From Terriglobus aquaticus (GTDB taxonomy: Bacteria > Acidobacteriota > Terriglobia > Terriglobales > Acidobacteriaceae), in assembly GCF_025685415.1 (NCBI RefSeq), contig NZ_JAGSYB010000001.1, forward strand, positions 1,612,001 to 1,676,000: a stretch of 64,000 nt of DNA, in the 5' to 3' direction. The notes under the pieces were generated by a model. It was given only the letters and a program-made list of their open reading frames with translations, was not told the origin of the DNA and ran no database searches. A program made the position numbers and the translations under genes. Position 1 is the stretch's first letter. The number at the start of each line of letters is the position of its first letter. Below, piece after piece: positions 1 to 19,284 of this stretch.

Positions 1-143
1 GCCGTCGAATTTCCATTAGTTCCTGCCATAGAGTGCCCAGTCGCTGACGGAACGATACGGCCTGATCTTCCGGTAATGGAACAAGGGATGGCCGTTGCTC
101 GCTACGATGTCACCCGTGAAAATGATAGGTTTGGAATCCAAAT

Positions 144-545
144 TCAGGAATGCGCAGGAGAGAATCTGCATGCCTGCGTGCTCTCGCAGCCACTCAGCGC
201 GGTGCGTCGTTCCCCAAAACTGCTTTCCTCCTTATCGTGGAAGGCTTCAGGTGCGACTCGATAGCCGATCTTCGGGATGGTCTCAATGAGATGCTTTCCA
301 CTCGCCGTCTTACCCACTGTCCGGCGAAGCAAGAGAACAGTTTGGGTCAGATTGGATTGTTCAACACAGGCATCTTCCCAAATATGTTTCCGAAAGGCCT
401 CATAAAGCACTGGTTCGCCTTTTGCACGAACGAGGAGGAGCAACACCTTCAACCGCCTTGAAGTGAGCCTTATTCTTCGCCCTCCTTCTTCAAGAAGAAG
501 AGGCCTTCTGTGAAGGGTATAGCGGCTGAAATGATAGGTGTTCAT
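144..545 (-). CDS. Winged-helix (OmpR/PhoB C-terminal type) DNA-binding protein
   Basis: A 133-residue protein whose first ~95 residues read as a Trans_reg_C winged helix: an N-terminal beta strand (YTLHRRPLLLEEGGRRIRLT), the helix LTSRRLKVLLLLVRAKGEPV, the recognition helix in SNLTQTVLLLRRTVG, and the closing hairpin ending IETIPKIGYRVA, which is the classic end of CadC/ToxR-like DNA-binding domains. No receiver domain, membrane segment or TPR region follows; the tail of ~35 residues is nondescript. The start at 545 (MNTYHF) is chosen over an upstream in-frame ATG at 581 because homology-like sequence begins there. It lies 3' of the CHAT-like cassette on the same strand but 578 bases away, so control of that cassette is only possible, not shown. 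The short length could also mean a truncated regulator. Confidence 0.72.
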   Translation of the reverse strand: MNTYHFSRYTLHRRPLLLEEGGRRIRLTSRRLKVLLLLVRAKGEPVLYEAFRKHIWEDACVEQSNLTQTVLLLRRTVGKTASGKHLIETIPKIGYRVAPEAFHDKEESSFGERRTALSGCESTQACRFSPAHS

Positions 546-1122
546 AGCTTGCACCTGAGAGAATAGACACTGACAGATCAACTCTTAACTCGTTGAAGCT
601 CTTTTGGAACAGCTTTTTTAGAGTTCCTTCAATGTCGGCAGAGTCGATTGCGCGGCATCGAGGGACGCACGTTGCGCAAGCCAATCTTCTTCTCCCAGTA
701 CTCTTCCGCGCGGGATACTCGCCGAGTCGCTAGTAATCGGACCGGTGTCGTAAGTGCATTGGCCTGTTCTCGCCGATCGAGAACAAGCTCATCCAGAATG
801 GCGAATGATGTTCCACCTCGCCAAACCTGTCCTCGGCATTACGCTGCCTGCTAACCTTCTCGCTCGCGGAAGCTCAGCATAGTGCCGTCAGGGTGGCTAG
901 AAGCTGTTTATGAGGCGCACCCTTGCCCGCTCTCACAGTCCAATGCGGTTGACTGCCCATCATTCGGAGTTTGCGTTTAGCTTCGAACTACTGTCGCGAA
1001 CCATGTCCGGCTGCCGGATGCGTTCGGCCACGCACTCGATGCTCGAGAACCGAAGCCGCCGCTTCCAAGCAGACCTCACCGCTGGCCGACTTGACTACAC
1101 AAAGGGTGAGATCCAATGCCCG
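546..1122. other. Stretch without a convincing gene; possible coding remnant
   Basis: No start-to-stop gene is convincing here. On the minus strand 629..847 is an open frame of about 72 codons with protein-like composition (it contains FAILDELVLDRREQANAL) but no ATG, GTG or TTG near its upstream end. It may be the tail of a decayed gene. Nothing else could be recognised. Confidence 0.3.
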
Positions 1123-1512
1123 CTACTTACCTGACGCCAGCAACAATTGGATCAGCTGCATCGTCTCGCTGGCCGGCAATTGTCGTGCCATGACCAGCAC
1201 CGTGTCGGTACGGACCTTCTCCCGCCAGAAACTTAACATCTGCGGAGCAATCGCTGCAAACGAGATGCCTGTCGCCGTGAACAGGCCCGTAATCGCCAGC
1301 GTGTTTGCACGGTAGACATAGATCAGAAAGCAGCAACCCGCAAACACGGCCACCAAAGCTCCGATACAGAGCCGAAAATACATCTCGTTGTTGGTAATCA
1401 CCGTTTTCAGGTCGGCAATAAGCTGTTCTTGTGAAGGCTGGGTCTCTTGGGCGGCTACCGCTTCACCTAGATGGTAAGAACGCGCACCTAATACGTCTCT
1501 TAGCCTTCTCAT
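1123..1512 (-). CDS. Small two-helix membrane protein, third gene of the CHAT-like cassette
   Basis: A 129-residue protein with a hydrophilic N-terminal ~44 residues, two hydrophobic segments (about 46-66, FRLCIGALVAVFAGCCFLIY, and about 70-95, LAITGLFTATGISFAAIAPQ) and a short soluble tail. The start ATG shares four bases (ATGA) with the stop of the CHAT-like gene, so the two are almost certainly translationally coupled. The architecture resembles the small two-transmembrane domains that accompany prokaryotic conflict effectors such as the TRADD-N-associated membrane domain. That resemblance is an impression from layout, not a match I could test. It could anchor or be a target of the putative protease, or form a membrane-damaging effector. 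Function otherwise unknown. Confidence 0.75.
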   Translation of the reverse strand: MRRLRDVLGARSYHLGEAVAAQETQPSQEQLIADLKTVITNNEMYFRLCIGALVAVFAGCCFLIYVYRANTLAITGLFTATGISFAAIAPQMLSFWREKVRTDTVLVMARQLPASETMQLIQLLLASGK

Positions 1513-2429
1513 CCTTTTCTCCTGAACGTCTCGCGAACGTCAAAGCTGGCTTCGGGGAAAGTTTTAGCCGTCCGGTGAATACGGTCGATGACCTGGCGAT
1601 AGAAAGCCATTCGGACTGAAAGGTCAGCGCTTTGTTCATTGCATAGGCAGTGCGTGCCGGGACACGCATCGTGGATCAATTGCGCGAGCAGCACGGAATT
1701 GCATACCGTCAGGTCTAGCCAGGAAGGCATCCGTTCGGGAAGCCCGGCCAGAATGTCGGTGACCGTCTGAAAGCCTTCGCTGAATTCCACTGCTGCTCCC
1801 CGGCGGAACATGCCCGGAGCAGCATCTTCAAGCTGCAGCCTGCGAAGTTGCCACTGCACCTGCTGCGCGGTCAGAAAACCTGCCTGCTTGGCAGCCGGGC
1901 TGTTCTCGTTCAGACGGCCTTCCAGCGCGCGGTTCAGCAAAGCGAGCAACTCGCCTGCTTCCATCTCGCGATCCATCGCCACTTCGCAGTCCATCGCGAT
2001 CAACGTCTGCCGCAACGTAAAATCACTCCACGCCAGTTTGGCTAACGCCTCTGCATCGGTCAGATCGCTTTTGCGAAAACGGGCGCTTCTCCAGTGCGCC
2101 ACCAGCGACACCACTGGCCAGGAGCGGCAAAGTTCATACCAGTCCTCCAGCCGTGCGTTGCGGATCACTCGCACACCTAACCGCTCCACATGCCGCAGCA
2201 AGTCCTCGATCATTCCAGCCAGGGGCGCATATTTCCCCCAGCGCTGCACGGGAGACAGATATCGATACTCGGGGCGGTCGTTTTCCCGGACGAACGTTCC
2301 CTCTTCTCCTTCCTCAAAGGCTCGCACGAATGTCTCCACCTGGAGAGGCACGCAAACCGCGATGGCACAGTTACGCGGCTCTGTTACCGCTTGGCCCCAA
2401 CCCGCTTGGCCGCCTGTCCTCCACAACAT
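1509..2429 (-). CDS. Divergent CHAT-like (caspase-fold) putative cysteine protease
   Basis: A 306-residue protein. After an N-terminal strand (NCAIAVCVPLQ, ~20-30) comes a helix and strand (APLAGMIEDLLRH then VRVIRN, ~68-91), the strand PVVSLVAHW placing a candidate catalytic histidine at 112, a ~120-residue variable region, the strand WLDLTVCNS placing a candidate catalytic cysteine at 243, then a strand (THCLCNE) and the helix DLSVRMAFYRQVIDRI. This order, with His at the end of one core strand and Cys at the end of the next, is that of CHAT and other clan CD peptidases. The usual HG after the histidine is HW here, so it is divergent. The ATG at 2429 has an AGGAAGGA-like ribosome site 5 bases upstream; the gene overlaps its upstream neighbour by 59 bases and its downstream neighbour by 4. 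Family call moderate; peptidase activity inferred. Confidence 0.65.
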   Translation of the reverse strand: MLWRTGGQAGWGQAVTEPRNCAIAVCVPLQVETFVRAFEEGEEGTFVRENDRPEYRYLSPVQRWGKYAPLAGMIEDLLRHVERLGVRVIRNARLEDWYELCRSWPVVSLVAHWRSARFRKSDLTDAEALAKLAWSDFTLRQTLIAMDCEVAMDREMEAGELLALLNRALEGRLNENSPAAKQAGFLTAQQVQWQLRRLQLEDAAPGMFRRGAAVEFSEGFQTVTDILAGLPERMPSWLDLTVCNSVLLAQLIHDACPGTHCLCNEQSADLSVRMAFYRQVIDRIHRTAKTFPEASFDVRETFRRKG

Positions 2430-5400
2430 ATAGGTCCTTCCTCTGCGAGTTCACGAGATGAATATCCACCTTCCTAATGCCGGGATGAGCCTTCTGCAAG
2501 TCGATTTCAAGTCGTCGGAGCGCAAAAAACAGATCGGCTTGTTCCGAGACGGCGTGGAGCAGGACACCAATCTGTTGGGGAAGCAAAGCTGCGGCCGAGG
2601 CCATATCTGAAAAGAACAGGCGGATGCGGATCAACAGCGGCTTACCAAACCAGCCTTTCGCCGGAATCTCAAGGCTCGCGTCTATGACCGCATGTCCGTC
2701 GACCATGTGCGGTGCGGAAACCTCCCGCACTGTTGCCTTAGAAAGGTCGTACTCGGCCGTAAGTGCGCGGATATCTTCCTCGGACATGGAACCTTCAAAG
2801 CTGGCATCTACCGCTTCGTGGTCCTTCATCTGCGCTTCGGTACTGCGCACGAACCCTCGACCTTCTTCTTCATCCACACCTTGAAAATGCAGATGGAGGC
2901 TATCCGCGCCTAAGGTATCTTCGGCTGTAGAGCGCACCGCTTCTACAGCCGCCGGCAGGTTGTCCGCCTGCATGTGCAGGCCCGCCGGACCCACGATGTC
3001 ATAGCGGTGGTCCGCAACGCGCGATACGATTATCACCGGTTTCGCTTGTTTCGCTTTGCCTGCGGAGAACGCGGCAACAAGCCGGCTCCTCTCAGGATCC
3101 GGTGCGTCTTTAGTGCTCCACCATCCCGGCGTGTCTCCGCCGTCCGGCACCTGCCTAGGGTCAAAGCCCATGCTCGCGCCTTCGGCAAACCGGCCGCCGC
3201 GCGGGTACAGGCTGTCGGTGAGCGTGCGCAAATCGCTCGCCTGGTCCTTTAGCATCCCTTGAATTTCCCGCTTCAGCACCTCCGGATCTTTCTCCGCGTC
3301 CCGTCCCGCAAGGCGGGCAGTCTCCGGTATCTTTTCAGCGTCGGCTTCGCTGTGGTACACCACCGCGTGACCATCCTCCGTAGTGACACGCACCTCACCC
3401 GCCCGCAGCGAACTGTCCACCTTAAAGTCCGTCACGGCTGCGGAAAGATTGTGCCCACCGGTGGCGCCGGCGACCTCGCCCATTGCGGTCGAAAACACCA
3501 CGGACGGCGTGTGTATCCAGATCGATCCGGATCGGCTGTTAGCCTCATTTTCGTAAAGCATTCCTGCTACTGTCCGAAACTCAGCAGACAGAACGGGTTG
3601 CAGCGCCGACGATACGCGCTGGCACAGATGTGCGATCGTCCGCGTATCCTTGTCGCTGCTAGCGGCTCCTGACCGAGCTGCTGCGGGATCGGCGATGCAC
3701 GCGATCAACTCGTCGTACTGCTCCGGCGAAGCCTCTTCCGAGAACTTCTCCAAAAGGCCGTGCGCATCGCGGATGCTGGCGCTCACCGGGTCGTCGCCCT
3801 GGAATAAAGGATCACTGTCCTTTTTCTCCGTGATAGCTTTGATGAGCTGACCGGTTTTTTCCTTCAGTACAGAGACAGCATGATGCTCGTGATTGCCCGG
3901 AGTGGCCTTGATGCCAAAGTGGGTAAATATCTGGTACAGACCGGCATACTGCACCACACGCACCAGATTCGGGTCGCTGAGCTGGCTGTAGTATCCGTAT
4001 GCCGTGTCCTCAGCTTGCCGCAGATTCGCATTATCCAGCGCTAAGTAATCGATTGGAAGTGAGCCGAGCTGGTTCAAGGAAAACACCTCGAAGCCGGAAA
4101 ACTGTGACACGTAGCCAGCACCGCGAGTGTTCCAGTTAAACAAGACCTCGTTTGTGTTTGCCTCCCGGTTCAGTGGTTTTCGAAACGGATAGGTTGCGGG
4201 ATCAGGATAGGGGAAATTGACATACCGGATTAGCCCATGCATCGACCAAGATTTGAGCATCTGGTCCGTAATATTTAAGAGGCTGCCGTATTCCGTGTCG
4301 AGGAGCTGGTCGCTCAGGTAGATCGGTGCCCAGTCAATTTTTTCCGCGCCGTTTCCGGTCTGGTCTGTCTTGCCTGCCCACAAAAACTTGCGCTCGTAAC
4401 TCTGCTCCAACTCCCCGGTGTTCGCCGACGCCAGTTGCAGGATCGTCTCTGTCCGGAGTGGAGGCATCCACGCAATCGACGTCGATCGAGTCCGCCCCAC
4501 GATCGCCACCTTCTTGGCGGATCCGATCGCTCCTAATATCAGGTCAGAATCGACGGCAAACTCCCGTGCTTCCACGCTCGACTTGTCCAGGTTAGCGTCC
4601 TCGCCCACGCACCACACTACGAGGCCAGGTTCGGCCGTTGCGTACACCCCATGCGCGCCCGAATCCAGCAGCGTCTGTAATGTCACGGAGTTCCCGCCCA
4701 GAACTGGTCGCAGTCTCAACACCTCCGGATCCGACGGTTTCGCTCTGTGCGGAAGGGCGGCAAGGAAGAACATCAAAAACACCAGCGTCAGAAACGTGAG
4801 CGACAAAGGCCGGCTCCTGCGCAGCAGCTTGCGCGCAAGCCACAGGTATACGAACAGGATCGCCAGCAGAACGGAGATAGCCGCGATCGAAAACGAGGAA
4901 GGCCGCTCCCGTGTTCCACCGATCAGCCAGCGGTTTAATTGCGAAGAGGTCACATGCAAGTTCAGATCGGTGCCCGGGGCGGTCTCTCGCACTCCATTCA
5001 CTGGTACGGTGTATGCCTTGTACGCCGTGCCGAATAGCGTCCTGTGGAGCGCGATCACCAACTCTTGGATCTGTTCGTCCCTACACGGACGCAAACGCAT
5101 CACGATGTCTTTGACCCAGCCGTCCACGCCGAATCGCTTCTTCGCCGTTTCCGTCGAAGCGATGCACGGTGACAGCCTGCTCACATCGTCGAGAGCTACG
5201 TTGGGCGGAGGCTCCGAAACGATCAGGGTCCGGCTGCCATCCTCACCTGACCGAGAGAGCGCGACGACCTGAAGGTGGAACGGATGAGATGTGCGAAAAC
5301 TTTGCCACGCTTCAATCTGCGCGCCTGAAGCGCTCGTCCCGTCCGCCTCTTGGCTATGAGCGCAAGGAGAGATCGATAGAAAAGTCAGAAGCGACGTCAA

Positions 5401-5430
5401 GATAAAGTAACTAGCCCTGCTATGGCGCAT
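2371..5430 (-). CDS. Large exported/membrane protein of unknown family, first gene of the CHAT-like cassette
   Basis: A 1019-residue protein starting at MRHSRASYF. This start has AGGAG 5 bases upstream and opens a clear signal peptide ending near CAHSQEADG; an in-frame ATG 44 codons earlier lacks both. Residues ~30-175 are a soluble domain. Two hydrophobic helices follow (FSIAAISVLLAILFVYLWL, ~180-200, and LSLTFLTLVFLMFFLAAL, ~210-227), separated by a basic loop (ARKLLRRSRP) that by the positive-inside rule is cytoplasmic. The remaining ~790 residues would then be periplasmic. I recognise no domain in it; the middle is rich in aromatic residues and the last ~300 residues in acidic, helix-forming sequence. 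It overlaps the CHAT-like gene by 59 bases, implying one operon. It might be the sensor or substrate of the protease, but its likely periplasmic placement makes direct contact uncertain. Confidence 0.8.
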   Translation of the reverse strand: MRHSRASYFILTSLLTFLSISPCAHSQEADGTSASGAQIEAWQSFRTSHPFHLQVVALSRSGEDGSRTLIVSEPPPNVALDDVSRLSPCIASTETAKKRFGVDGWVKDIVMRLRPCRDEQIQELVIALHRTLFGTAYKAYTVPVNGVRETAPGTDLNLHVTSSQLNRWLIGGTRERPSSFSIAAISVLLAILFVYLWLARKLLRRSRPLSLTFLTLVFLMFFLAALPHRAKPSDPEVLRLRPVLGGNSVTLQTLLDSGAHGVYATAEPGLVVWCVGEDANLDKSSVEAREFAVDSDLILGAIGSAKKVAIVGRTRSTSIAWMPPLRTETILQLASANTGELEQSYERKFLWAGKTDQTGNGAEKIDWAPIYLSDQLLDTEYGSLLNITDQMLKSWSMHGLIRYVNFPYPDPATYPFRKPLNREANTNEVLFNWNTRGAGYVSQFSGFEVFSLNQLGSLPIDYLALDNANLRQAEDTAYGYYSQLSDPNLVRVVQYAGLYQIFTHFGIKATPGNHEHHAVSVLKEKTGQLIKAITEKKDSDPLFQGDDPVSASIRDAHGLLEKFSEEASPEQYDELIACIADPAAARSGAASSDKDTRTIAHLCQRVSSALQPVLSAEFRTVAGMLYENEANSRSGSIWIHTPSVVFSTAMGEVAGATGGHNLSAAVTDFKVDSSLRAGEVRVTTEDGHAVVYHSEADAEKIPETARLAGRDAEKDPEVLKREIQGMLKDQASDLRTLTDSLYPRGGRFAEGASMGFDPRQVPDGGDTPGWWSTKDAPDPERSRLVAAFSAGKAKQAKPVIIVSRVADHRYDIVGPAGLHMQADNLPAAVEAVRSTAEDTLGADSLHLHFQGVDEEEGRGFVRSTEAQMKDHEAVDASFEGSMSEEDIRALTAEYDLSKATVREVSAPHMVDGHAVIDASLEIPAKGWFGKPLLIRIRLFFSDMASAAALLPQQIGVLLHAVSEQADLFFALRRLEIDLQKAHPGIRKVDIHLVNSQRKDLYVVEDRRPSGLGPSGNRAA

Positions 5431-6034
5431 ACTCACTCCTGGACAGTCGTTGTTGCGGAGGTGACTGGCCCTGAAAATCACGTGTCTAACGCAACGGTCC
5501 GTCATCAGGCATGCCTGCCCTGATTTGAGGAGGCCCATTCTGTTGAAGAAAGGGGTCTCCACGCGTCACTTGCCTGAGGCGACAGCACGGGAAGTGTGCG
5601 CCAGCATAGCAGGTCTACAGGAGTGTGCAACTACAATATTCTTTTCGCTGCGGACTTTAGCCGCTGCTGAAAAACAGCCTCGAAGGCAGCAGTGGCTTTA
5701 GTCCACCGAACCGAGTACTTCATAACCCGAGGCTGCGCTGTCCGAACGTGTGCTCGTTATGCCGAACGAACAGTTCACGGTGAAAGTCACGATTGCATGC
5801 GCTTCCCAACGGAAGCAAATCGCAAGCCTGCTCACGATTAGTCCAGCGTCCCCGTCATAACCAGTATCCCTTAGTAGAGTTGCTGTGGCTTTGTCACTGC
5901 TATTGCCTCCCCATCGCGGCTGACGGCGAATTCTCGTGCCTCTCAGAAAGCTGAGGCGACTTATTCAGATCGAGATGCGACAACAGATGCGTCTGAAGTG
6001 AACTTAATGATCGCAAACCACACGGAGCCTGCCT
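5431..6034. other. Intergenic region upstream of the CHAT-like cassette
   Basis: About 600 bases without a supported gene. It holds the ribosome site of the 1019-residue protein (AGGAG just above 5430) and presumably the cassette promoter. No repeat, RNA gene or terminator was evident by eye. Confidence 0.5.
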
Positions 6035-6271
6035 CTATTCGGCTATCTCAGGTGGCTCCACTTCGTACGGCTCTACGGGTTCAGGCGGTTCAGGAACTTC
6101 CGGACCTTCTTCGGGGCCGGGGAACGCTGGCGCTGGAATGAGTTGTGGGCCGTCATCCGGGTATAGGTCAGGGACGTTCGATGGCGGGGGGCCTGGCAGG
6201 GTTTCGTAATTCGGCTCTTCGAGCTCCGGTGGTGCAGGCCCGGGTTCTGGTATAGGCGGGTAACTAGACAC
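6035..6271 (-). CDS. Small proline- and glutamate-rich protein
   Basis: A 78-residue protein beginning with GTG at 6271. The start is well supported by AAAGGAG eight bases upstream. Composition is extreme: roughly a third proline and about a fifth glutamate, in runs such as PEPGPAPPELEEP and PEEGPEVPEPPEPVEP, ending PPEIAE, with no hydrophobic core, no signal peptide and almost no basic residues. It is expected to be disordered and strongly acidic. It stands alone between the CHAT-like cassette and the integrative element. I recognise no family; a linker-like or ligand protein for SH3/WW-like or secretion partners is conceivable but not supported. The strong ribosome site argues it is translated. 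Confidence 0.6.
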   Translation of the reverse strand: MSSYPPIPEPGPAPPELEEPNYETLPGPPPSNVPDLYPDDGPQLIPAPAFPGPEEGPEVPEPPEPVEPYEVEPPEIAE

Positions 6272-7261
6272 GGCGCAGTCTCCTTTGGCGAATCTTGAGC
6301 GAACCTAGTTTCTCGAATCGTAGGATAGTTCATCTGACTGATCAACAGGATTCCTAAGTCGCGAAAAGCTTGAGGCCTTCAGCTTCGTCAGATCGTTTCT
6401 CTACCCGGGATCTGCATTGTGTCATGCGTCTTCGCCGCCGTGTTCAGTGAAGCTTTTGTCGGTCGGACGCAGTTCACGCGCGCTGAAGCTCAAGTCGGGC
6501 GACCAGAGAACCTTCGCGGCAGCTGTTAGGTACTGCAGAAGCGATCCGAGTGTCTTCACAGGTCTAATCATTGATGTCAGTGTCGATGTGGCGGCCGCCA
6601 AGATCGTACGGGCCAACTCCAGGCTGATAGGTCCTACAAAGCCCTCGTCCGTTCGCCGGTCAAATCATCAGGCAGGTGCTGATCCCCCTGTGGTTCTACG
6701 AGAAGCGACCGAGCGGGTGAGCTTGCTCCATCCGCCTGTAGCGCCGGTCCACGGACATCCGGCCTTACCCAATTGGGGAAGGTAAAGACGGCGCTGACGT
6801 TTCCGAAGGGCACCGGTTCGCGCTCACGGATACTTTCGAGCAGTGTGGTTGCGCGCAGTGTCTCGCGAAATCGCGGATTCTAAGCGGCGTCCGGATGAAG
6901 CGCGGAGGCGCTCTGCTCCAAGCAGTTAACCGCGTTAGCTCACCACAGAGCCCGAGACAAGTGGTTGGCCCCCACTAGTTGAATCTCAACGAGCGATAAA
7001 TCGCCAATGCACTCGTGGACCATCGAACGAGCGCAAGCGCGGTAGCCTTAAACTCCGGTAGCACGCGAGCCATCGCTTTAGCTTGGAGAACTAACTCCCC
7101 GGAGTCTCCTCTCGCAGACGCACAACAGGCCGCCATGGCGTCAGGATCTGCCAGCTTCGTCGAGAAACATCGACGGCCCGATCAGTTTAACCTCCGCCGG
7201 AGACGATGGCATTACCATTCCCAAAATTGAGAAGTGACCTAGAGACGGGGCAGCGCATCGG
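6272..7261. other. Gene-poor stretch at the left of the integrative element
   Basis: Nearly 1 kb with no reading frame that looks coding on either strand. The longest frames lack ribosome sites and protein-like composition. Probably decayed element DNA. The second attachment site expected for the tRNA-Ser element was looked for here and not seen. Confidence 0.45.
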
Positions 7262-7606
7262 CTACGAAGCTGGAAAGCGGGCCTGAGAATCGAACGTGGT
7301 AGATACCATGCTGCTTGAATCTCTGATTTTGCAGACTTCAGCGAGACACGATGTGACTTGCCGGCGCCTGACCTTGCCCAGAAGTGCTGCAGCGTCCGAA
7401 GCTCTAACCATCACCTCGATCGCGATATCTTGCAAGCTCGCTGTCGATTCGCCGTGCCTTAGCGCGCTGCGACTTGCCTCCCAACGGCTCGCGGCGTCAC
7501 GGTGCTTTATCCATGGATGTGCAGATGTTTCGGTTACGAGGGTGTCTTCTGGAGCGAGCGGAAAGAGCGGTTCATCTTCGTTTTGGTTGTCGATTGCCTC
7601 GTGAGA
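7262..7606 (-). pseudogene. Open frame without a start codon, possible gene remnant
   Basis: A 114-codon open frame on the minus strand between stops at 7607-7609 and 7262-7264. Its translation looks like real protein (for example EPLFPLAPEDTLVTETSAHP and SRWEASRSALRHGESTASLQ), but the first usable start (GTG-ATG) lies more than half way through and has no ribosome site. It could be the body of a gene whose beginning was lost by frameshift. I do not recognise the family. Confidence 0.3.
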
Positions 7607-7714
7607 TCACTTCTCATCGGACGTGGTCTAGCGGCAAAGCCTGAGCGCCCGCTCTTAGCGACTCAGACAAAGCAGAGCAGCGAAGAGCAAGCACCGGGCT
7701 CAGCGAAGAAGGGA

Positions 7715-7957
7715 TCACATGACCCATTCCGTTTCTTTAGACTTGTCATCCTCTTCAAGAGCCTTCCGCGCGGCTGCCGCATAATGCTGCAGGACTTCGA
7801 GCATGCCCTGTTCATTGAGGTAATGCGCCAGGTGCACGAGACAGGCTCTCGCCGGAGCAAGCGTGATGCAAGCGTCCTTTTCGAGGTCTGAAAGGTTAAA
7901 GAGAATCGTCACGCTAGCAGCAGCGCGATCAAGAAGAAGATCGGGTGAATCGGTCAT
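7715..7957 (-). CDS. Small hypothetical protein of the integrative element
   Basis: An 80-residue protein starting MTDSPDLLLDRAAASVTILF. The ATG at 7957 has GAGG eight bases upstream, which decides it over longer in-frame starts at up to 8095. The sequence is mostly helical (SVTILFNLSDLEKDACITL, HLAHYLNEQGMLEVLQHYAA) and ends in a charged tail EEDDKSKETEWVM. There are no membrane segments and no family I recognise. It is the last gene of the minus-strand run that includes the recombinase and the 125-residue protein, so it is likely element cargo or a small regulator. Confidence 0.55.
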   Translation of the reverse strand: MTDSPDLLLDRAAASVTILFNLSDLEKDACITLAPARACLVHLAHYLNEQGMLEVLQHYAAAARKALEEDDKSKETEWVM

Positions 7958-8100
7958 AAATCTAACCTCGGTGTTGTTTGTTGGTGGTGAGGACAAGCAA
8001 CTGGCACTGAGCCCGTCGCCAGCCCGTGGGCGCGATCTAAGATCGCCTCTGTGATTCAGGTGTTCGTTCCAGCGCTCGCTGGTTCTGCGAGGCAACAGGT

Positions 8101-8135
8101 CTGGCTAAAGCTCCTCAGTGAGGAGCTTTAGCCAG
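8101..8135. repeat. Perfect 17-bp inverted repeat just past the 125-residue gene
   Basis: Bases 8101-8117 and 8119-8135 are exact reverse complements around a single central base. The site starts four bases past the stop of the gene at 8139. The minus-strand transcript would form a long hairpin, but no run of T follows it, so it is either a Rho-independent-like processing or terminator structure or a protein-binding palindrome. Its core (8111-8129) recurs exactly at 10708-10726. Confidence 0.7.
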
Positions 8136-8138
8136 CTC

Positions 8139-8516
8139 TCAGGCGGCCTCCTTCATCTCGGGGCTTTCTAACAGTTGCAGTTCGATCAACTTGCTATGGC
8201 CCTGTGTCGCCGGGTTAGGCGTTTTCAGCATCCTGATACGCGTGGCAATCAGCTCCGCGTGAACGCGGAAGCACTGATTGATAGCGCCGTACCCAAGAGG
8301 CTCATCTTGCGGCCACTTGTGACCAAGGTAGTCACGAAGAACCGCCGCCCATTGGCTTGGGCTCTTAGGGCCGCTGCACTGCTCGGCGCGCTCTCTGAGC
8401 AGCCCGCAGAGCGGTTCAAAAAAACGCACGGTCTTGTATAGCTCGAGCTGATCTCCGCGACGAAGTAGAAGATTCCTGCGTGAGATGGATCGTGTTGGTG
8501 GGAGGTCGGTGTACAC
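8139..8516 (-). CDS. Hypothetical protein (125 aa) with a near-perfect ribosome site
   Basis: Starts with GTG at 8516, preceded by AGGAGGTGA only a few bases upstream, an almost ideal anti-16S match, so this frame is very likely translated. The protein is basic and helical (RRNLLLRRGDQLELYKTVRF, FRVHAELIATRIRML) with no membrane segment and no domain I can name. Its first 268 bases lie inside the out-of-frame 3' end of the serine recombinase. That overlap suggests the recombinase originally stopped before ~8520 and now reads on through this gene. Likely element cargo or an accessory DNA-binding protein; function unknown. Confidence 0.6.
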   Translation of the reverse strand: MYTDLPPTRSISRRNLLLRRGDQLELYKTVRFFEPLCGLLRERAEQCSGPKSPSQWAAVLRDYLGHKWPQDEPLGYGAINQCFRVHAELIATRIRMLKTPNPATQGHSKLIELQLLESPEMKEAA

Positions 8517-9799
8517 TCACCTCCTACCAACACGCCTGAAGAACGCGCGTTTTGGCCTGAGAAGATGTCCACCTCGCCGATGACGCAGACCTGGTCTGTT
8601 CCGTCGATGGTGTCAGGGTAGAGCTTTAGGCGAACGAGATGATCTTCGAAAAGAGTCCGCGCAAGCGCAACATCTTCCTGCAACACCTTCTTGAACTTGC
8701 TCAGGTTCTGTCGAACCAGTTCCGTCAGGGTTTCCGGGGAGACCACGACCTTGCGTCGACTCTTCGCGATCCGCAACTTCTCACGTAGAGAGATGGCTTC
8801 TCTTTCCAACGCAGCTATGCGTTCTGCGACCACGAGAGACGGTCCCTGCTCCGCGATGACGAGAAGATTCTGAATGCCTTCTTGCTTCAACCGGAGTTGG
8901 CTTTCCATCTCTCTCAGGCCTGCCCGGCTCGCCCGTTCCTCTTCTCGCCTGAACCTTGCGGTCAATTCGGCGTGGGTGGAGGAGACGAGAGGCTCGAAGT
9001 TCGCGGCGCTCAGCAGCTTCGAAGCGAAGAGTTCGGTCAGTTGTTCTGAGAGAACAGATTCGGGTATGCTCAACCGGCTGGTGCACCCGCGGTGCATGCG
9101 TGCGTTCTCGCACCTGTACCGAGATCGACTCTGTAAGCCGTTTGCGATCAGTTTTTCGCCACAGAGACCGCAGAACAGGAAACCGCTGAAGAGGTATGGC
9201 CGGTCCTTGGCCCTGTTGTAACCGCCCTCCACCCGAGACTTCTGCTTGCTGGACATCTTGGATCGACGCTCCGCAGCTGCTGCCCAGAGCTCGTCTGAGA
9301 CGATCCTGAGTTCTGGCGCGTCGATGCGAACCCACTCTGTCTCAGGCTTGTCGACCTTCTGGATCTTGCCGGTATCAGGGTCTTCTTCCTGGTGGCTGAC
9401 ATTCCAGATGTACTGGCCTATGTACTTGACGTTTTTCACGATCGTCTTGATCGGATCTGAACCCCAGTTCGATTCCGTCTTGCGCGCTCGCGAATTGATC
9501 GGCGACGGAATCATTTCCGCGTTCAGCAGCTTGGCGATCCCCATCATGCTCTTGCCGTCCGCGTACATCTGGAAGATGCGCCGTACCACTTCAGCCTCCT
9601 CTTCAAAGATCACGAGCTTGGAGCCGAGGGTTCCGCCTTGCGTCGTCGCGTTCGGGGCGTTCGGATCGAGGACACGGTCGCACCTATAACCGTAAGGAAC
9701 ACTTCCGACGTGGAAGCCCGCGAGGACGCGTCCCTTCTGCCCGGCAAAAGACTTGTCTTGCAGGTTCTTCACGAACTGCTGATCGATCATCGCGTTCAC
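8249..9799 (-). pseudogene. Large serine recombinase, C-terminal part (frameshifted; recombinase, zinc-ribbon and coiled-coil domains)
   Basis: This 516-codon frame continues the serine recombinase after a frameshift near 9804-9810. It begins with NAMIDQQFVKNLQDKS, the linker helix that follows the catalytic domain, then the Recombinase domain (PYGYRCDR, EAEVVRRIFQMYADGKSM, NWGSDPIKTIVKNVKYIG), a zinc ribbon (FCGLCGEKLIANG followed by YRCENARMHRGC), and a coiled coil (~270-350). After about residue 425 (IGEVDIFSGQNARSSG) the sequence loses protein character and runs for ~90 codons through the next gene in another frame, probably because the true stop was lost. Without the N-terminal part this frame cannot catalyse strand exchange. 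An RNA-level or sequencing explanation of the shift cannot be excluded. Confidence 0.8.
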
Positions 9800-9801
9800 A
9801 T

Positions 9802-10215
9802 TCAGGATGATCTCCCAACGGTTCTAGACGTGTCGATGTCCTGCTTCGCGAAGCAGACCGCGGTTTTGCGTTTTCCTGCGTCTTTCACGAACTCCAAGAT
9901 GTCGTGTACATCCCGGGCGCACCGCGACGTATCGTCAAAAAGCACAACGCCGAACTCTCTCGGCTTGCGCTTCATGGCCGCGCGCAGGGCCCCAAAGCCC
10001 GGCCGATTCCGTGTGTTTGTCCCAGATTGAGCGGCGTCCTGATAGATGTGGTCATCAAGAAGAATGATGCCGTTCTTTTCGGCATACTCTCGGCAGGATC
10101 GCTCTTGATCCTGCAGGGAGGCGGGGCGCTGCATCGAGGTCGAGTACCTCGCGTAAAGCGCTGCTCGACGTGTAACACCGCCTGTCGAGGTGTTGGTGAG
10201 GTTAGAGGGTCTCAA
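9802..10215 (-). pseudogene. Large serine recombinase, N-terminal catalytic domain (cut by frameshift)
   Basis: A 137-codon frame starting with TTG at 10215, with GGAAGG seven bases upstream. It carries the resolvase/invertase catalytic domain: ALYARYSTSMQ with the nucleophile serine at 25, then QDQERSCREYAEKNG, GFGALRAAMKRKPREFGVVL and DDTSRCARDVHDI. It ends prematurely at DTSRTVGRSS. Restoring one base in the GGG run at about 9807-9810 would join it directly to EIILNVNAMIDQQF of the next frame, as expected for one ~650-residue enzyme. So a one-base loss in a G run has split the gene, by real decay or by a sequencing error. It is the second recombinase of the element besides the tyrosine integrase. 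Confidence 0.82.
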
Positions 10216-10359
10216 TGTTTCGCCTTCCTTTCAGCGGCGCAGGGTCCGACCTGCTGAAGCCGGTGCCTTGTCTGGTGGTCTGAGAGCAAGAAGGTGGACA
10301 GGATCCGCCCAATCCCTTGCAAGAGCGTTTGTGGTGCGTGGTCAGGGAAGATCCCGGGA

Positions 10360-11124
10360 TCAACTGGAAGACGGACGCTGTTCCGTTGCTTCTGGTCTGG
10401 CCGTATGGGCGCGGTCCGGATCGCGCTGGTCGGGCTTGCTGGTTGCCTTGCCACCTTGTTCCTCCTTGTTGCTGCGATCAGCGTCGGTTAAGGTCACGGG
10501 AGCTTCGGGCGAAGCGGAAGCTTCCAGGTCGGGGGTGGCAGGCGGAGCCGGCGTGATCTCTTCGGCCACCAGTTTCGGATTTGGAACTCTCTGAAGCTCG
10601 TCAGCGAGAATCCTCATGAAGCTCGCCTTCTGCTCCGCGCTCAGGTGCTTGCGATGGAGCAACCGTGCGTACCTCATGGCGAGGTTCTGGACTTCAACGT
10701 CGCTAATCTCCTCAGTGAGGAGCTTTCTCCTGCCGATGAACTCCTGGACGTAGCGGTCAGCAGTCGCCTTGCTGATCCCCGCCTGCTTGAGTAACTTGCT
10801 CCACTTGCCGTCCCGGCCGGTCTTCGCCAAGGCTTCCTTGTAGGCAGCAAGGTTTCTTCCGAGCTCGCGCCTGTTCTCTTGAAGCTGCTTCCGGGTCTTG
10901 GCGACTGCTGCCCTCGTCTTTGCCTTCGCAGACCAGAGCTCCGTGATCTTCAACTCCATGGCGTCAAGCTCCGAGCTGGAGGTCTCCGCAGCAGGTGGTT
11001 TCGTCGTACCCGAAGTTGCGATCGACGTGATGCACGGCATAGGGCAGCTAGCACCCTGCTCAGCCTTGACGATGGCTGGCTTCTTTGCCGAGGGTGGCGG
11101 TCCGCTGAACTGGATGGTGTTCAT
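10360..11124 (-). CDS. DUF3102-like helical protein with disordered tail
   Basis: A 254-residue protein. The ATG at 11124 follows GGAAGGTG and overlaps the stop of the excisionase-like gene by four bases (ATGA), so the two are coupled. A low-complexity N-terminus leads into a long helix (KAKTRAAVAKTRKQLQENRR) and then the segment LGRNLAAYKEALAKTGRDGK, followed by WSKLLKQAGISKATADRYVQ. That segment has the shape of DUF3102 and ParB/KilA-linked helix-turn-helix modules found in phages and plasmids. The last ~80 residues are Pro/Ala/charged and probably disordered. It may act in element control or partition; the DUF3102 resemblance is read by eye. It contains the second copy of the palindromic repeat at 10708-10726. 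Confidence 0.65.
   Translation of the reverse strand: MNTIQFSGPPPSAKKPAIVKAEQGASCPMPCITSIATSGTTKPPAAETSSSELDAMELKITELWSAKAKTRAAVAKTRKQLQENRRELGRNLAAYKEALAKTGRDGKWSKLLKQAGISKATADRYVQEFIGRRKLLTEEISDVEVQNLAMRYARLLHRKHLSAEQKASFMRILADELQRVPNPKLVAEEITPAPPATPDLEASASPEAPVTLTDADRSNKEEQGGKATSKPDQRDPDRAHTARPEATEQRPSSS
10708..10726. repeat. Second exact copy of the 19-base palindromic core
   Basis: Nineteen bases identical to 8111-8129, with a 7-bp inverted repeat (ctcctca / tgaggag) around one base. Here it sits inside the coding sequence of the DUF3102-like protein, encoding KLLTEEI. Two exact copies 2.6 kb apart within the element are unlikely by chance and suggest a binding site or a copied segment. 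Confidence 0.6.
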
Positions 11125-11366
11125 TTCGCCACCTTCCCGTTGAGCATGCGGCTGTCGAGCCAAACCGCGAGGGCGATTGGGTCGAAGCGGTACCCGTTCG
11201 GGGTGCGTAACGCAGGCAGGCGTCCGCTTGCGCACCATCCACAAATGGTGTTGCGGCCGAGTTGAAGTAGGTTCATAACCTCTCGTGTGGTCAGGTAGCG
11301 GTCGAACTGGCGGATGCTGTCCACCAGGCTCGTCCGCGCATCGGGAGCGTCTTTCAAGGCGTTCAT
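11121..11366 (-). CDS. Excisionase-like helix-turn-helix protein
   Basis: An 81-residue protein from the ATG at 11366. It contains a MerR/excisionase-type HTH (helix_turn_helix_17): YLTTREVMNLLQLGRNTICG, then WCASGRLPALRTPNGYRFDP and ALAVWLDSRM. The pattern of strand, turn with GRLPA, and G-[YW]-RF is typical of AlpA/Xis-like recombination directionality factors. Longer frames reach 11738 but read as non-protein and overlap the integrase. It lies between the integrase (141 bases away) and the DUF3102-like gene, with which it shares ATGA, which fits a role in excision control. Confidence 0.75.
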   Translation of the reverse strand: MNALKDAPDARTSLVDSIRQFDRYLTTREVMNLLQLGRNTICGWCASGRLPALRTPNGYRFDPIALAVWLDSRMLNGKVAK

Positions 11367-11506
11367 ACTGGCTAATACCGACCGGTTGTCCCGAACCTGA
11401 ATATGGGGCTGTGGAAAACTTTCGCGCCTGCACTGGGCCGTACAGCTTGCCTCGGGCCACACCGACGCGAAGCCGGGCGCTGGTGCAGTCGCTCGGCCCG
11501 AAGCCA

Positions 11507-12754
11507 TTAGCGGCACTCCGGTTCTTCCAGAAAGCTGAAGCTTGCGTTCACCTGTGAGCGAGTCCTGTCGGAGCGCAGGTCCGCCGCAGCCAGGTACCGG
11601 AGCGTGGTCGTCAGGTCGGAGTGTCCAAGCCATCGCTGGATAGTGGTCGCTGGGACGCCGGCTTCCGCATGGGAAGTCGCGAGGGTCCGGCGAAATTCGT
11701 GCAGGCCCCAGCGCCGGCACACCGCCTTGCTGGAACACCGTTGACCACCACGTGTCACGCAGGAATTGCAGTTGAGGCCTGCATGGAAGGCGAGGCGCTG
11801 CAGTTCGCGGAGGTGATGACGGTTTGGAGCTCCGGATTTTGACGGAAAAAGGAGGGAGGATTGACTGCCAGCCTTCAGATTCTCCAATTCTTTGATCAGG
11901 CTGTCCGGCACCGGAACTGACCGCTCTTCCTTGTCCTTCAGTCGGAACTTGTATGCAGGCTTACTGCGCGCCGAGATGACCTTGTTGCGGAAGTCGACAT
12001 CGTCCCAGGTGCAGTGCGTAACCTCCTGCTCGCGAAAACTCGTGGCCAGAAAGAATGTGAAGAGGATGCGCTGTCGCGTGGTGGCGGCCTGCAGAAGTTT
12101 GGCGACCTGGTCCGGGTGGTAGGCACTCACGACCTTCTCGTCATAGCGAGGCCAGTCTGCGGGCCGAAGAACTCGCGCGGTCCCGTTGCCAATGAGCAGG
12201 GAGTTGATGCGCGCCACGTGGTTGAACACGGTGCGGTCGCTAAGTCCCTTTGCCTTCAGGTGCAACATGTGCTGCAAAATGTCATTGCGGCTAATGTCCG
12301 CGACCAGACGAGAACCATACCGGCCGGCGAAGAGGCCCAGCATGTTCTTACAAGCAGCGAAGGTCTTCGCTGCACGCATTGCTCGGACTTCGTCTAAGTA
12401 TTCCTGGACTGCGATCTGTACAGTGCGCGCAACTGCGGCTCTGACTGATGGAGTGTTGGGTGCAGGATCTTGGACCGCACGCCCAAGCGCAGTGGCGGAC
12501 AGATCATGCTCACGGTTGCGGAGAGCGGCCACTGCGGCCTGCGGTTCGGCACCTACGGATTCCCAGACCCTCTTGCCGTATTTCGCGTAGCGGAGATAAT
12601 AGACCCCCTCCGGATGGGCTGCCTGCTTTCCGTCGATAATGGCGTAGCCGGCTCTCAGCGTGTGATTTTTGTTCCACGCAGGAGCCGCGAACAGGTCCTT
12701 GCGGCCCTGCTTGATACGGATGTAGAGGCGAACTTTCGGAACCTTCGTCTTCAA
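11507..12754 (-). CDS. Tyrosine site-specific integrase with a Cys-rich insert
   Basis: A 415-residue integrase: N-terminal arm-binding region, core-binding (SAM-like) domain at ~112-190 (VQIAVQEYLDEVRAMRAAKT), and catalytic domain at ~210-390. Catalytic residues are visible: Arg241 (SFREQEV), His352 and Arg355 (LHEFRRT), His378 (LGHSD) and Tyr387 (LRYLAA). Between Arg241 and His352 is an unusual insert with Cys329, Cys332, Cys340 and Cys346, spaced like a zinc-binding knuckle. The TTG start at 12754 has GAGGG six bases upstream, and that GAGGG lies in a hairpin arm. Read away from tRNA-Ser(CGA), it most likely catalyses insertion at the 3' end of that tRNA. The gene appears intact. Confidence 0.9.
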   Translation of the reverse strand: MKTKVPKVRLYIRIKQGRKDLFAAPAWNKNHTLRAGYAIIDGKQAAHPEGVYYLRYAKYGKRVWESVGAEPQAAVAALRNREHDLSATALGRAVQDPAPNTPSVRAAVARTVQIAVQEYLDEVRAMRAAKTFAACKNMLGLFAGRYGSRLVADISRNDILQHMLHLKAKGLSDRTVFNHVARINSLLIGNGTARVLRPADWPRYDEKVVSAYHPDQVAKLLQAATTRQRILFTFFLATSFREQEVTHCTWDDVDFRNKVISARSKPAYKFRLKDKEERSVPVPDSLIKELENLKAGSQSSLLFPSKSGAPNRHHLRELQRLAFHAGLNCNSCVTRGGQRCSSKAVCRRWGLHEFRRTLATSHAEAGVPATTIQRWLGHSDLTTTLRYLAAADLRSDRTRSQVNASFSFLEEPECR

Positions 12755-12759
12755 ACAGA

Positions 12760-12788
12760 AACCCTCGAAGGCATATACCTCGAGGGTT
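12760..12788 (-). promoter_or_regulatory. Hairpin that would cover the integrase ribosome site
   Basis: Bases 12760-12768 and 12780-12788 form a 9-bp inverted repeat. In the integrase mRNA the GAGGG ribosome site is in the arm nearer the TTG start and pairs with CCCTC of the other arm. This could hold integrase translation down, or the palindrome could be an operator. Confidence 0.5.
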
Positions 12789-12800
12789 ACCTGAAAGACG

Positions 12801-12855
12801 ATTACTAGTCGCCGGAGCGCCTAGTAATGCCGAATGTGTCACAACGAGTGTCACA
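12801..12855. promoter_or_regulatory. Inverted and direct repeats between integrase and tRNA-Ser
   Basis: An 8-bp perfect inverted repeat, attactag at 12801-12808 and ctagtaat at 12821-12828, is followed by two direct copies of gtgtcaca at 12836-12843 and 12848-12855, 12 bases apart. Repeats in this position are typical of integrase or excisionase arm-type sites near an attachment site, or of an integrase promoter operator. Confidence 0.4.
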
Positions 12856-12895
12856 GACTGCAATTTGGAGCCGAAACTTGGGAACTTTAGAAAAG

Positions 12896-12987
12896 TGGCG
12901 GAGAGTGAGGGATTCGAACCCCCGATCGCCTTACGACGATGTCTGATTTCGAGTCAGGTGCATTCAACCGGGCTCTGCCAACTCTCC
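12896..12987 (-). tRNA. tRNA-Ser (anticodon CGA)
   Basis: Read on the minus strand, the acceptor stem GGAGAGT (from 12987) pairs with ACTCTCC (12906-12900), with discriminator G and an encoded CCA at 12898-12896. The anticodon loop is CTCGAAA within a CTGA/TCAG stem, giving anticodon CGA. A long variable arm (about 12920-12940) and the T arm GGTTCGAATCC are present, as required for a class II serine tRNA. Without CCA it is 89 bases. It is the likely insertion site of the neighbouring element. Confidence 0.95.
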
Positions 12988-13039
12988 GTGGCTCTAGTTT
13001 ATCGCACTCCGGGCAGCCGCGCGGTCTCCGCGCTTCCAC

Positions 13040-13378
13040 TCAGATCGAGTTCGATTCCGCGCTTCTCACTTCAAAGACGTCCAGCGCCTCCTCCAAAGGC
13101 GCTCTCCAGTCCATCTGCGTTGTCGGATCATTCCGACGCGTTACGCGGATACTCACCGCAGAACACTTGTGCTTGCGCGCTAGCTCAAGCAGCTCCTCAA
13201 AGAACTCGTGGTACACGCCTGGGGGCGTTCGCTTGCCAAGGATCATTGGTGCAAGGTTCTCCTGGACTTCTTCGCCGGTGTCCGGCTGTCTCTTTGCCTT
13301 CCGAGAGATGCCACTCTCCCGAACGGGCGTCGGTGGCAACATCAGTCCCGCTTGGGGTATGGGTGTCATCCGAATCAT
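13040..13378 (-). CDS. Hypothetical protein
   Basis: A protein of ~112 residues if started at MIRMTPIPQAG. Earlier in-frame starts at 13402 and 13438 would add a Cys-rich leader (GKCMGCYNCCS) that looks less natural; no candidate start has a strong ribosome site. A flexible Pro-rich first third is followed by a helical segment (GVYHEFFEELLELARKHKCS) and a strand-rich end (AVSIRVTRRNDPTTQ, LEEALDVFEVRS). No membrane segment. It lies between tRNA-Ser and nrdA on the opposite strand to nrdA. Not recognised; the codon pattern and composition look genuine. Confidence 0.5.
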   Translation of the reverse strand: MIRMTPIPQAGLMLPPTPVRESGISRKAKRQPDTGEEVQENLAPMILGKRTPPGVYHEFFEELLELARKHKCSAVSIRVTRRNDPTTQMDWRAPLEEALDVFEVRSAESNSI

Positions 13379-13556
13379 GCTGCAGCAGTTGTAGCAGCCC
13401 ATGCACTTTCCCGGGTAGATTCGAGCCCACACAGTCAACCCCGGTCAAACATCCGTTTGATTTCCAAAAGACGGACCAGCCTTCCACAAGCGGGTTCGGC
13501 GTACCATGCAGGCTTGTCAGCCAGGACCACAAGCTTCGTCCCACATTTGCACATGG

Positions 13557-13572
13557 GCCCTATATCTTGTGC
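13557..13572. promoter_or_regulatory. NrdR-box-like site upstream of nrdA
   Basis: The 16 bases gccctatatcttgtgc closely resemble the NrdR consensus acaCtATATcTtGTGt, especially in the right half. It lies about 210 bases upstream of nrdA. NrdR boxes normally come in pairs about three helical turns apart; only a degenerate candidate is visible ~31 bases upstream, so the call is tentative. Confidence 0.45.
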
Positions 13573-13781
13573 TTGCACGGTTCACTGGCCCGAGCTAGAG
13601 TAGGCATACCTCGAAAGCGCGCCACTGGCTCGCTTTCCAGATGAAGCCGGCAAAGGCGAAATTAAGGCGAATACAATGAGAATGTGGCAGCTTGGCGGAG
13701 CTGCCCTGCTGCCCGCCCGCTCGGACTGCACTCGTAACTAGATCGATTCCGGGCAGCAGCGGCCCACAAGCAAGGAGCACT

Positions 13782-16271: not shown

Positions 16272-16294
16272 TCTTCATCTTCTCGACACGTCCA

Positions 16295-16348
16295 ACAGTG
16301 TCATCCTGAGCGAAGCGAGGGATCTGCTCTCCTTCGCTCAGGCATACC
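16295..16348. repeat. Intergenic repeat-like element with inverted ends between nrdA and nrdB
   Basis: The spacer contains gtcatcctgagcgaagcgag followed by ggatctgctctccttcgctcaggc, so the parts tgagcgaag and cttcgctca form an inverted repeat. The tgtcatcctgagcgaagcga module is one I know as a widespread dispersed intergenic repeat in acidobacteria and some other phyla. In the nrdAB mRNA it would form a stem-loop between the two genes. Confidence 0.55.
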
Positions 16349-16395
16349 TTTTCTCGGAGCCACGGCTCCGACCCAGCACCACCAGGAGCCCACCG

Positions 16396-17487
16396 ATGTC
16401 CGCAACCCTCGATCCAATCTCCGTCGCCGCAAACGGAACTGCCCACAACAATCCAATTACCTCCGGCTCAGCGGTCACCGCGCCTGACAACATCCTTGAT
16501 CCGGGCCTGTGCTTGACGCTGCGCCCGATGAAGTACCCGCAGTTCTATGACATGTTCCGCGACGGCATCAAGAACACCTGGACCGTCGAAGAAGTCGACT
16601 TCTCCACCGACCTGGTCGACCTGCGCTCCAAGCTCTCGCCTGCGGAAATCCACACCATCAAGCGCCTCGTCGCCTTCTTCGCCACCGGCGACGCGATCGT
16701 CTCGAACAACCTCGTGCTCAACTTATACAAGCACGTCAACTCGCCGGAAGCGCGCCTCTACCTCTCACGCCAGCTCTACGAGGAGGCCGTGCACGTGCAG
16801 TTCTACCTGACGCTGCTGGACAACTACGTCCCCGACCAGGAAGAGCGTTACGAGGCCTTCGCCGCCGTCGAAAACATCCCGTCCATCCAGAAAAAGGCCG
16901 ACTTCTGCATGAAGTGGATGGATTCCATCCAGGCATTGGACACGCTGCAGACCCGCGAAGATCGCCGCCAGTTCCTGCTCAACCTCATCTGCTTCGCATC
17001 GTCCATCGAAGGCCTCTTCTTCTTCGCCGCCTTCGCCTACGTCTACTTCTTCCGCAGCAAGGGCCTGCTCCACGGTTTGGCCTCGGGTACCAACTGGGTC
17101 TTCCGCGACGAGAGCTGCCACCTCGAGTTCGCCTTTGAGGTCGTCAACGTCGTTCGCCAGCAGGAGCCCGACCTCTGGGACGCCGACCTGGAACGCCAGA
17201 TCGTCGAAATGCTGGAAGAGGCTGTGGACTGCGAAGCGCAGTTCGCCGAGGACCTGCTCGCCGGCGGCGTAGCCGGCCTCTCCGTCCGCGATATGCGCGC
17301 CTACCTCGGCTACGTTGCCGACTCGCGCCTGCAGCGCCTGGGCATCGCCCCGCACTTCAACACCAAGAACCCCTTCAGCTTTATGGAGCTGCAGGACGTC
17401 CAGGAACTCACCAACTTCTTCGAGCGCCGCGTCTCCGCCTACCAGACCGCAGTGGAAGGTGAAGTCGCATTCGGCGAAGACTTCTAG
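16396..17487 (+). CDS. nrdB: Class I ribonucleoside-diphosphate reductase, beta subunit
   Basis: A 363-residue ferritin-like subunit that houses the di-iron/tyrosyl radical cofactor. The ATG at 16396 has AGGAG nearby; a longer frame from 16237 overlaps nrdA and looks non-coding. Metal ligands are visible as an acidic residue in SPAEIHTIKRL, the EEAVHVQFY motif (Glu, His and, four residues on, the radical Tyr), a Glu in the helix SSIEGLFFFAAF, and RDESCHLEF (Glu and His). The C-terminal tail AVEGEVAFGEDF matches the type that docks on NrdA. The radical tyrosine is kept, so this is a Tyr-radical enzyme rather than a class Ic variant. Co-transcribed with nrdA. Confidence 0.96.
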   Translation: MSATLDPISVAANGTAHNNPITSGSAVTAPDNILDPGLCLTLRPMKYPQFYDMFRDGIKNTWTVEEVDFSTDLVDLRSKLSPAEIHTIKRLVAFFATGDAIVSNNLVLNLYKHVNSPEARLYLSRQLYEEAVHVQFYLTLLDNYVPDQEERYEAFAAVENIPSIQKKADFCMKWMDSIQALDTLQTREDRRQFLLNLICFASSIEGLFFFAAFAYVYFFRSKGLLHGLASGTNWVFRDESCHLEFAFEVVNVVRQQEPDLWDADLERQIVEMLEEAVDCEAQFAEDLLAGGVAGLSVRDMRAYLGYVADSRLQRLGIAPHFNTKNPFSFMELQDVQELTNFFERRVSAYQTAVEGEVAFGEDF

Positions 17488-17672
17488 TCGCCACAGCACC
17501 TACAAGCAGGCTCGGGTCGAAATTCACGACCCGAGCCTGTCTAGTTCAGCAGTAATCCCACCGCCTTTGGCGTCAGCAAACCAGTCACCGACTGCCGAAA
17601 TTCGGCGCCGATGCGTGGACTCGCTACCTTCAGGCACCTTCTTCCCTTTTCATCACATCCATCTTTGCAGCT

Positions 17673-18311: not shown

Positions 18312-18345
18312 CAGGCGACTCAAGCTAATCCGAAGCACACAAAAA

Positions 18346-18374
18346 AGCAGGAGCTATCTAGCTCCTGCTTTTGC
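18346..18374. terminator. Bidirectional Rho-independent terminator
   Basis: A perfect 10-bp stem, agcaggagct at 18346-18355 and agctcctgct at 18360-18369, has a 4-base loop. It is flanked by A residues on the left and T residues on the right, so it can end transcription from both the XRE-cupin gene and the convergent CDF-like gene. Confidence 0.88.
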
Positions 18375-18395
18375 TTCTATGCGGAATCTTCTCGA

Positions 18396-19091: not shown

Positions 19092-19284
19092 TCGATGAAT
19101 CTTCGCCAGAATCGTCGCAAACCGTGTTCAAAACGCCCGATCTGTGGCAAGATAGAAGGGTTGGTCTGAGCAGGTGTGTCCAGCGTGGCAGAATCGCGCG
19201 GACGGGTCCATGCACCAGCCGCTCGCGGGTTCCCTCCACGAGCGGGCCGGAAGCGAGCTCAAGACACGTCAACAGGAGATCGTC

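Follow-up and report, generated by a model that had tools for sequence, protein, structure and literature searches.

The systems closest to the locus described here include those in the sections of Kaur et al. (2020; PMC7159879) on GAP1-N1 and caspase systems. EACC1-caspase System 4, as presented in those sections, is a two-gene, membrane-associated arrangement for which membrane sensing and proteolytic activation are proposed; its membrane protein has one transmembrane helix and is encoded by the 5′ gene, and its caspase carries a variable C-terminal effector. In the GTPase-centred GAP1-N1 systems covered there, caspases and 2TM SLATT proteins are given as effectors, and 2TM proteins that form pores are put forward as effectors of related systems. 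Also among the closest are the CHAT peptidases (PF12770, clan CD), such as the TPR-CHAT of Craspase (PMC9729208). In CHAT peptidases a histidine and then a cysteine each follow a hydrophobic stretch.

The present locus lies in a 64,000-nucleotide stretch of the Terriglobus aquaticus genome (Acidobacteriota), hereafter the window. Open reading frame analysis bears out the three overlapping minus-strand genes that a first-pass annotation had described: a large exported or membrane-anchored protein of 1019 residues, the predicted sensor (2371–5430, with the ATG start at 5430; an alternative GTG start further upstream would give 1063 residues), a 306-residue protein of caspase/CHAT-like layout, the predicted cytosolic cysteine protease (1509–2429), and a 129-residue two-helix membrane protein, the predicted relay, anchor or target (1123–1512). 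The overlaps are of 59 and 4 bases, and a plausible Shine-Dalgarno stretch, judged by eye, precedes each of the three starts. Encoding a small membrane protein together with a caspase-superfamily protein recalls System 4, but order and composition differ, as in cassettes of the window type the large exported protein usually comes first and the two-helix protein last. The GAP1-N1 systems differ in that GTPase genes lie near the cassette at one locus only among the neighbours scanned.

The first-pass annotation could not assign the trio to any system, and no family library searched names it either: the three window proteins have no Pfam match above cut-offs, no PADLOC-DB (2023) family at E values up to 1, and no PHROGs match at E values up to 0.01. 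The trio is not described in the open-licence literature searched, as judged by title and start of abstract, nor was it found in the portions of Kaur et al. (2020) on GAP1-N1 and caspase systems.

Recurrence and mobility of the cassette

Single-sequence searches reached few relatives, with one further genome among 200 for the large protein (G067, same family) and one further strong case among 396 for the 306-residue protein (G560, same phylum); both loci carry all three genes in the window order. Most relatives were found with a large-protein profile, which gave 13 loci in genome contigs from 107 candidate stretches. One of these (L014) is the contig of G560 already represented by L009, with an identical 306-residue protein, and was left out of the counts. 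A further profile search added L084 and L085, giving 17 distinct large-protein loci (the window, L008, L009, L012, L013, L015–L024, L084 and L085) that span Acidobacteriota, Proteobacteria and Bacteroidota.

The 306-residue family adjoins the large gene in 13 of the 17 loci; it was not found beside the large gene at L018, L084 and L085, and the fourth locus without it, L020, is on a contig that ends inside the large gene. A 306-residue profile search of 12 genomes gave 14 matches in 10 genomes, every one inside the cassette. The large and 306-residue genes overlap in 11 of the 13 pair loci, by 8 to 74 bases, including L019, where the gene order is reversed; they are 7 bases apart at L015, and at L021 another gene lies in between. 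Eight of the 13 pair loci also encode the two-helix protein, seven of them as a separate gene (the window, L008, L009, L012, L015, L022 and L024, the last assigned by position and hydropathy rather than by profile search) and one, L013, as a fusion to the C-terminus of the 306-residue protein. It was not found at L016, L017 and L023, and the contigs of L019 and L021 end at the relevant position, so that the count of eight cannot judge these two. With the pair found at 13 of the 17 loci, eight of which also have the small protein, the three genes are a real recurring cassette, more than chance, and the co-occurrence by which the first-pass annotation had proposed to check the trio is borne out. 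Two weak 306-residue matches (G467 and G481) were dropped, as no cassette gene was found in the surrounding stretches retrieved, and three from Bacteroidales (G586, G590 and G594), limited to profile positions 552–652, were dropped as probable coiled coil.

The window cassette is cargo of a 13,984-bp tRNA-Ser island bounded by 23-bp exact repeats. One repeat (12893–12915) lies at the 3′ end of the predicted tRNA-Ser gene that forms the integration target (anticodon CGA; 12896–12987, minus strand), and the other copy (G000:C1:1610932–1610954) is 1.07 kb beyond the left end of the window. The minus strand also encodes a tyrosine integrase (11507–12754; PF00589, E=2e-21), an excisionase-like HTH_17 protein (11121–11738; PF12728) and the C-terminal part of a serine recombinase with its recombinase domain (8249–9799; Pfam), the resolvase N-terminal domain of which is in a separate ORF (9802–10215); the recombinase, split over two ORFs (8249–10215), may thus be broken. 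The mobile element that the first-pass annotation placed beside the cassette is an island that contains it. The region of about 2 kb on the 5′ side of the large gene (5563–7714) holds no convincing gene and no Rfam match and may be decayed island sequence; over window positions 1–13100, Rfam at gathering thresholds identified the tRNA only.

Closest among the relatives found, for all three proteins, is the Paraburkholderia locus L012 (39%, 39% and 35% identity for the large, 306-residue and small proteins, respectively), with the same-family genome G067 more distant (26%, 18% and 21%). A search of 18 further genomes of the genus recovered neither the large nor the 306-residue protein. The cassette is present in 3 of 396 genomes of a phylum sample, its own included, in the centre genome only of samples around the Paraburkholderia copy (1/196) and the Ruegeria copy (1/196), and in 6 of 247 genomes sampled around a Bacteroidales copy, with three of the six matching through probable coiled coil alone. 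At L024 a tyrosine integrase is encoded about 5 kb from the cassette, and plasmid records, phage records and viral contigs gave no match with the queries used. Within the cassette, pairwise identities of the large and 306-residue proteins covary across the 13 loci (Mantel r=0.52, p=0.0002, in a test that ignores shared ancestry) and across the nine loci outside Bacteroidota (r=0.83, p=0.0002, likewise uncorrected), and those of the small protein covary with the other two across eight loci (r=0.48 and 0.45, p approximately 0.015 and 0.013, again with shared ancestry uncorrected).

Comparison of the 306-residue protein with CHAT peptidases

A hydrophobic stretch ending in histidine, followed at a distance by a second ending in cysteine, is the layout of caspases and CHAT proteases, and in the canonical CHAT motif the histidine is followed by glycine. 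In the window protein, H112 sits in VVSLVAHW and C243 in LDLTVCNS. Named as a caspase-like pair in the first-pass annotation without an alignment, these two proved to be the only invariant residues among the five histidines and eight cysteines of the window protein when compared across 13 homologues (17–39% identical to it), so that a putative catalytic histidine followed by cysteine is present in 13 of 13. E215 and S245 are conserved in 12 of 13. The histidine is followed by tryptophan in 10 of 13 and by histidine in 3 of 13, never by glycine, and the His-Gly motif is accordingly found in none of the members. No clear membrane segment was found in the 306-residue protein.

The invariant pair is separated by 109–152 residues in nine members and by 36 in four members from Bacteroidota. 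In these compact forms a hydrophobic stretch ending in the histidine leads to conserved glutamate and proline residues and then to a second hydrophobic stretch ending in Cys-x-Ser. The members lacking the insert coincide with those lacking the small protein, although all four are from Bacteroidota and two (L019 and L021) are at contig ends, and a paired loss of insert and small protein is only hinted at. Three members (L016, L017 and L019) bear a C-terminal DUF4062 domain, which we take to be TIR-related.

Direct comparison with CHAT peptidases gave mixed results. Neither CHAT (PF12770) nor C14 was matched in Pfam by the 13 members at E values up to 1, nor by the four compact members at E values up to 10, and PDB sequence searches with the 306-residue protein gave no relevant match. 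An hhalign alignment to CHAT sequences (27 of 30 loci, with L040, L045 and L048 left out) was obtained only for the core from which the insert columns had been removed; it scored 19.0 and aligned the histidine and the cysteine each with its CHAT counterpart. Among 400 block-shuffled targets, 18 reached this score, 33 brought both residues into register and 3 did both; earlier shuffle runs gave 3/100, 5/100 and 7/300. With the insert kept there was no meaningful alignment (score 4.0), and global mode gave the same outcome (4.3). Against nine C14 sequences (L114 left out), the cysteine was in register and the histidine off by one, with 73 of 300 shuffles reaching the score. A HMMER profile of the core did not rank CHAT sequences above 159 unrelated proteins (p=0.78) or above reversed CHAT sequences (p=0.25), and placed them slightly above shuffled ones (p=0.04).

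The family resembles CHAT peptidases in its conserved segment between histidine and cysteine, and the candidate catalytic residues are in register with theirs in the hhalign alignment of the core; it differs from them in having no Pfam match, no TPR, H-W or H-H in place of H-G, and a long His-Cys insert in 9 of 13 members. The 306-residue protein might instead have another fold, with the invariant residues serving different chemistry such as metal binding or acyl transfer, a reading consistent with the lack of a family or relevant PDB sequence match, with profile tests that are marginal or negative, and with a residue after the histidine other than the glycine of canonical members. Against this, the two residues agree with the CHAT profile in their order and surroundings and both fall in register, which only 3 of 400 shuffled targets combine with an equal score. 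We consider a different fold quite unlikely. Because the homology tests are mixed, we describe the protein as caspase/CHAT-like in layout, a relationship predicted from sequence, and do not assign it to the CHAT family; a protease fold is probable.

Membrane components, gene neighbours and proposed signalling

The window large protein has an N-terminal hydrophobic stretch whose 19-residue mean hydropathy (1.49) is just below the threshold of 1.5, and a membrane hairpin near residues 180–226 of the 1019-residue form. Among 15 aligned members, 14 have a 19-residue stretch within the first 270 residues that passes 1.5 and is taken as the N-terminal signal or first membrane helix, preceded in some by zinc ribbons, and the L084 and L085 proteins begin with a hydrophobic helix as judged by eye. 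The N-terminus of the large protein is accordingly signal-peptide-like or a membrane helix, and the protein would carry an extracytoplasmic ligand-binding or enzymatic part, the side of the membrane being predicted. Invariant core residues include Q343, S344, Y345, R347, D366, E380, N386, D389, Q390, K393, W395 and N432–T435. Apart from zinc ribbons in some relatives, Pfam and NCBIfam gave no domain in the large proteins, and the cassette thereby reveals a large exported protein family unrecognised by these libraries here. A resemblance of a GGHN segment to phospholipase D was set aside, as a nearby histidine is not conserved.

For the small protein, the two-helix description of the first-pass annotation holds in part: the window copy has one strong hydrophobic helix and a second, weaker one below threshold, which passes in L012, L013, L022 and L024. 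Hydropathy of the large and small proteins upholds the membrane-linked character that had been proposed for the cassette. The 306-residue enzyme could cut the two-helix protein to release a holin- or SLATT-like pore, which the large protein would restrain until triggered. In favour of such a pore, the small protein is hydrophobic, its gene comes last and it is coupled to the enzyme, and effectors of related systems are proposed to be 2TM pores (in the sections of PMC7159879 on GAP1-N1 and caspase systems). A holin match (E=0.14) also points this way, although it is below cut-off and was rejected as an assignment. SLATT was not matched by eight small-protein members at E values up to 10, among 25 of the 26 Pfam families listed, which also separates the cassette from the GAP1-N1 systems; moreover, the L013 fusion equally fits a stable anchor, and three relatives lack the small protein. 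We consider a protease-gated pore unlikely. The most economical readings of the sequences are that the large protein would act as sensor and the small protein as anchor or relay.

Neighbours of the relatives were hand-picked for Pfam scanning and are part of all neighbours, with no control set. At L016 (Bacteroidales, 1–19410) they include four TIR proteins alongside a TPR-CHAT, a macro domain and a kinase match below cut-off. Those at L017 are a TIR protein, a sub-cut-off kinase match and HsdM, with a further TIR protein at L019. A NACHT protein is encoded about 6 kb from the L009 cassette on the opposite strand, an Mrr protein neighbours L018, which lacks the 306-residue family, and the L023 cassette lies 1.1 kb before GASH, DO-GTPase2, DO-GTPase1 and GAP1-N1 genes on the same strand. 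PP2C and kinase genes neighbour L008, where the N-terminal zinc-ribbon region of the large protein contains four copies of a PGVxW motif and the opposite-strand kinase two (4228–5745, 7349–11377); the motif is absent from the large proteins of the window, L009, L012 and L016. No conflict-type neighbours were noted at L012, L013, L015, L021 and L022, with 0–2 neighbours scanned at each.

The large gene has uses of its own, because three loci carry it without the 306-residue family. These loci (L018, L084 and L085), the zinc ribbons of several relatives and the PGVxW motif common to the L008 large protein and kinase would suit ordinary regulation, in which the cassette reports the state of the envelope by limited proteolysis and takes no part in conflict. 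The sparse spread through the phylum, the absence from the 18 same-genus genomes searched and the island location are unlike housekeeping genes, and we regard a role in envelope homeostasis as improbable.

We tentatively favour, at somewhat less than even confidence, a horizontally moving, three-component, membrane-spanning signalling cassette, in which an outside sensor acts through a relay on a protease to bring about death or stalling. The likely layout of outside sensor, membrane relay and inside protease follows from the N-terminal signal or membrane helix of the large protein. The model draws on the recurrence of the pair and of the trio, the invariant H112 and C243, the L013 fusion, the parallel divergence of the proteins, the confinement of 306-residue matches to the cassette, the island with its attachment repeats, the closest relatives in another phylum, and the occurrence among the hand-picked neighbours of relatives of TIR, NACHT, PP2C/kinase and GTPase-centred conflict genes. 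Counted against it are the mixed outcome of the fold comparisons, the lack of a match to a known defence model, the missing small protein at L016, L017 and L023, the three loci with the large protein alone, and the lack of plasmid, phage or viral matches with the queries used. We infer a role in defence or suicide only from the mobility, patchy spread and neighbours of the cassette, and likewise infer its trigger, signal direction and death outcome. The large protein would watch the envelope from outside for phage adsorption or injection, competitor attack or damage; its change of state would pass via the two-helix protein to the docked cytosolic caspase/CHAT-like protease; and the active protease would cut the small protein, host proteins or both, killing or stalling the cell under attack.

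A more specific and doubtful version of the signalling-cassette model is a so far undescribed, mobile transmembrane immune receptor, which would be the bacterial counterpart of a death-receptor-to-caspase pathway. Its outward-facing sensor would belong to an unnamed family and would act by way of a two-helix relay on a caspase-like protease in the cytosol that carries out cell death; in a Bacteroidota branch the protease bears DUF4062 and is encoded close to TIR genes. In many bacterial defence systems, sensing takes place within the cell. If the signalling-cassette model is correct, the coupling of an extracytoplasmic sensor across the membrane to a caspase-like protease would amount to death-receptor-like logic in bacteria.

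Several further features were observed near these loci. At L016 one of the four TIR proteins is fused to an FGE-sulfatase domain, within a dense cluster around the cassette. L008 encodes a 1478-residue protein (13555–17988) with no Pfam match at E values up to 0.001, which by eye seems to begin with a nucleotide-binding part and to include a segment resembling actin/Hsp70 (GIDFGTTNT). The chromosomal part of the window encodes two long TonB-receptor-like outer membrane β-barrels with carboxypeptidase-regulatory N-termini (39894–43418 and 59409–62834).
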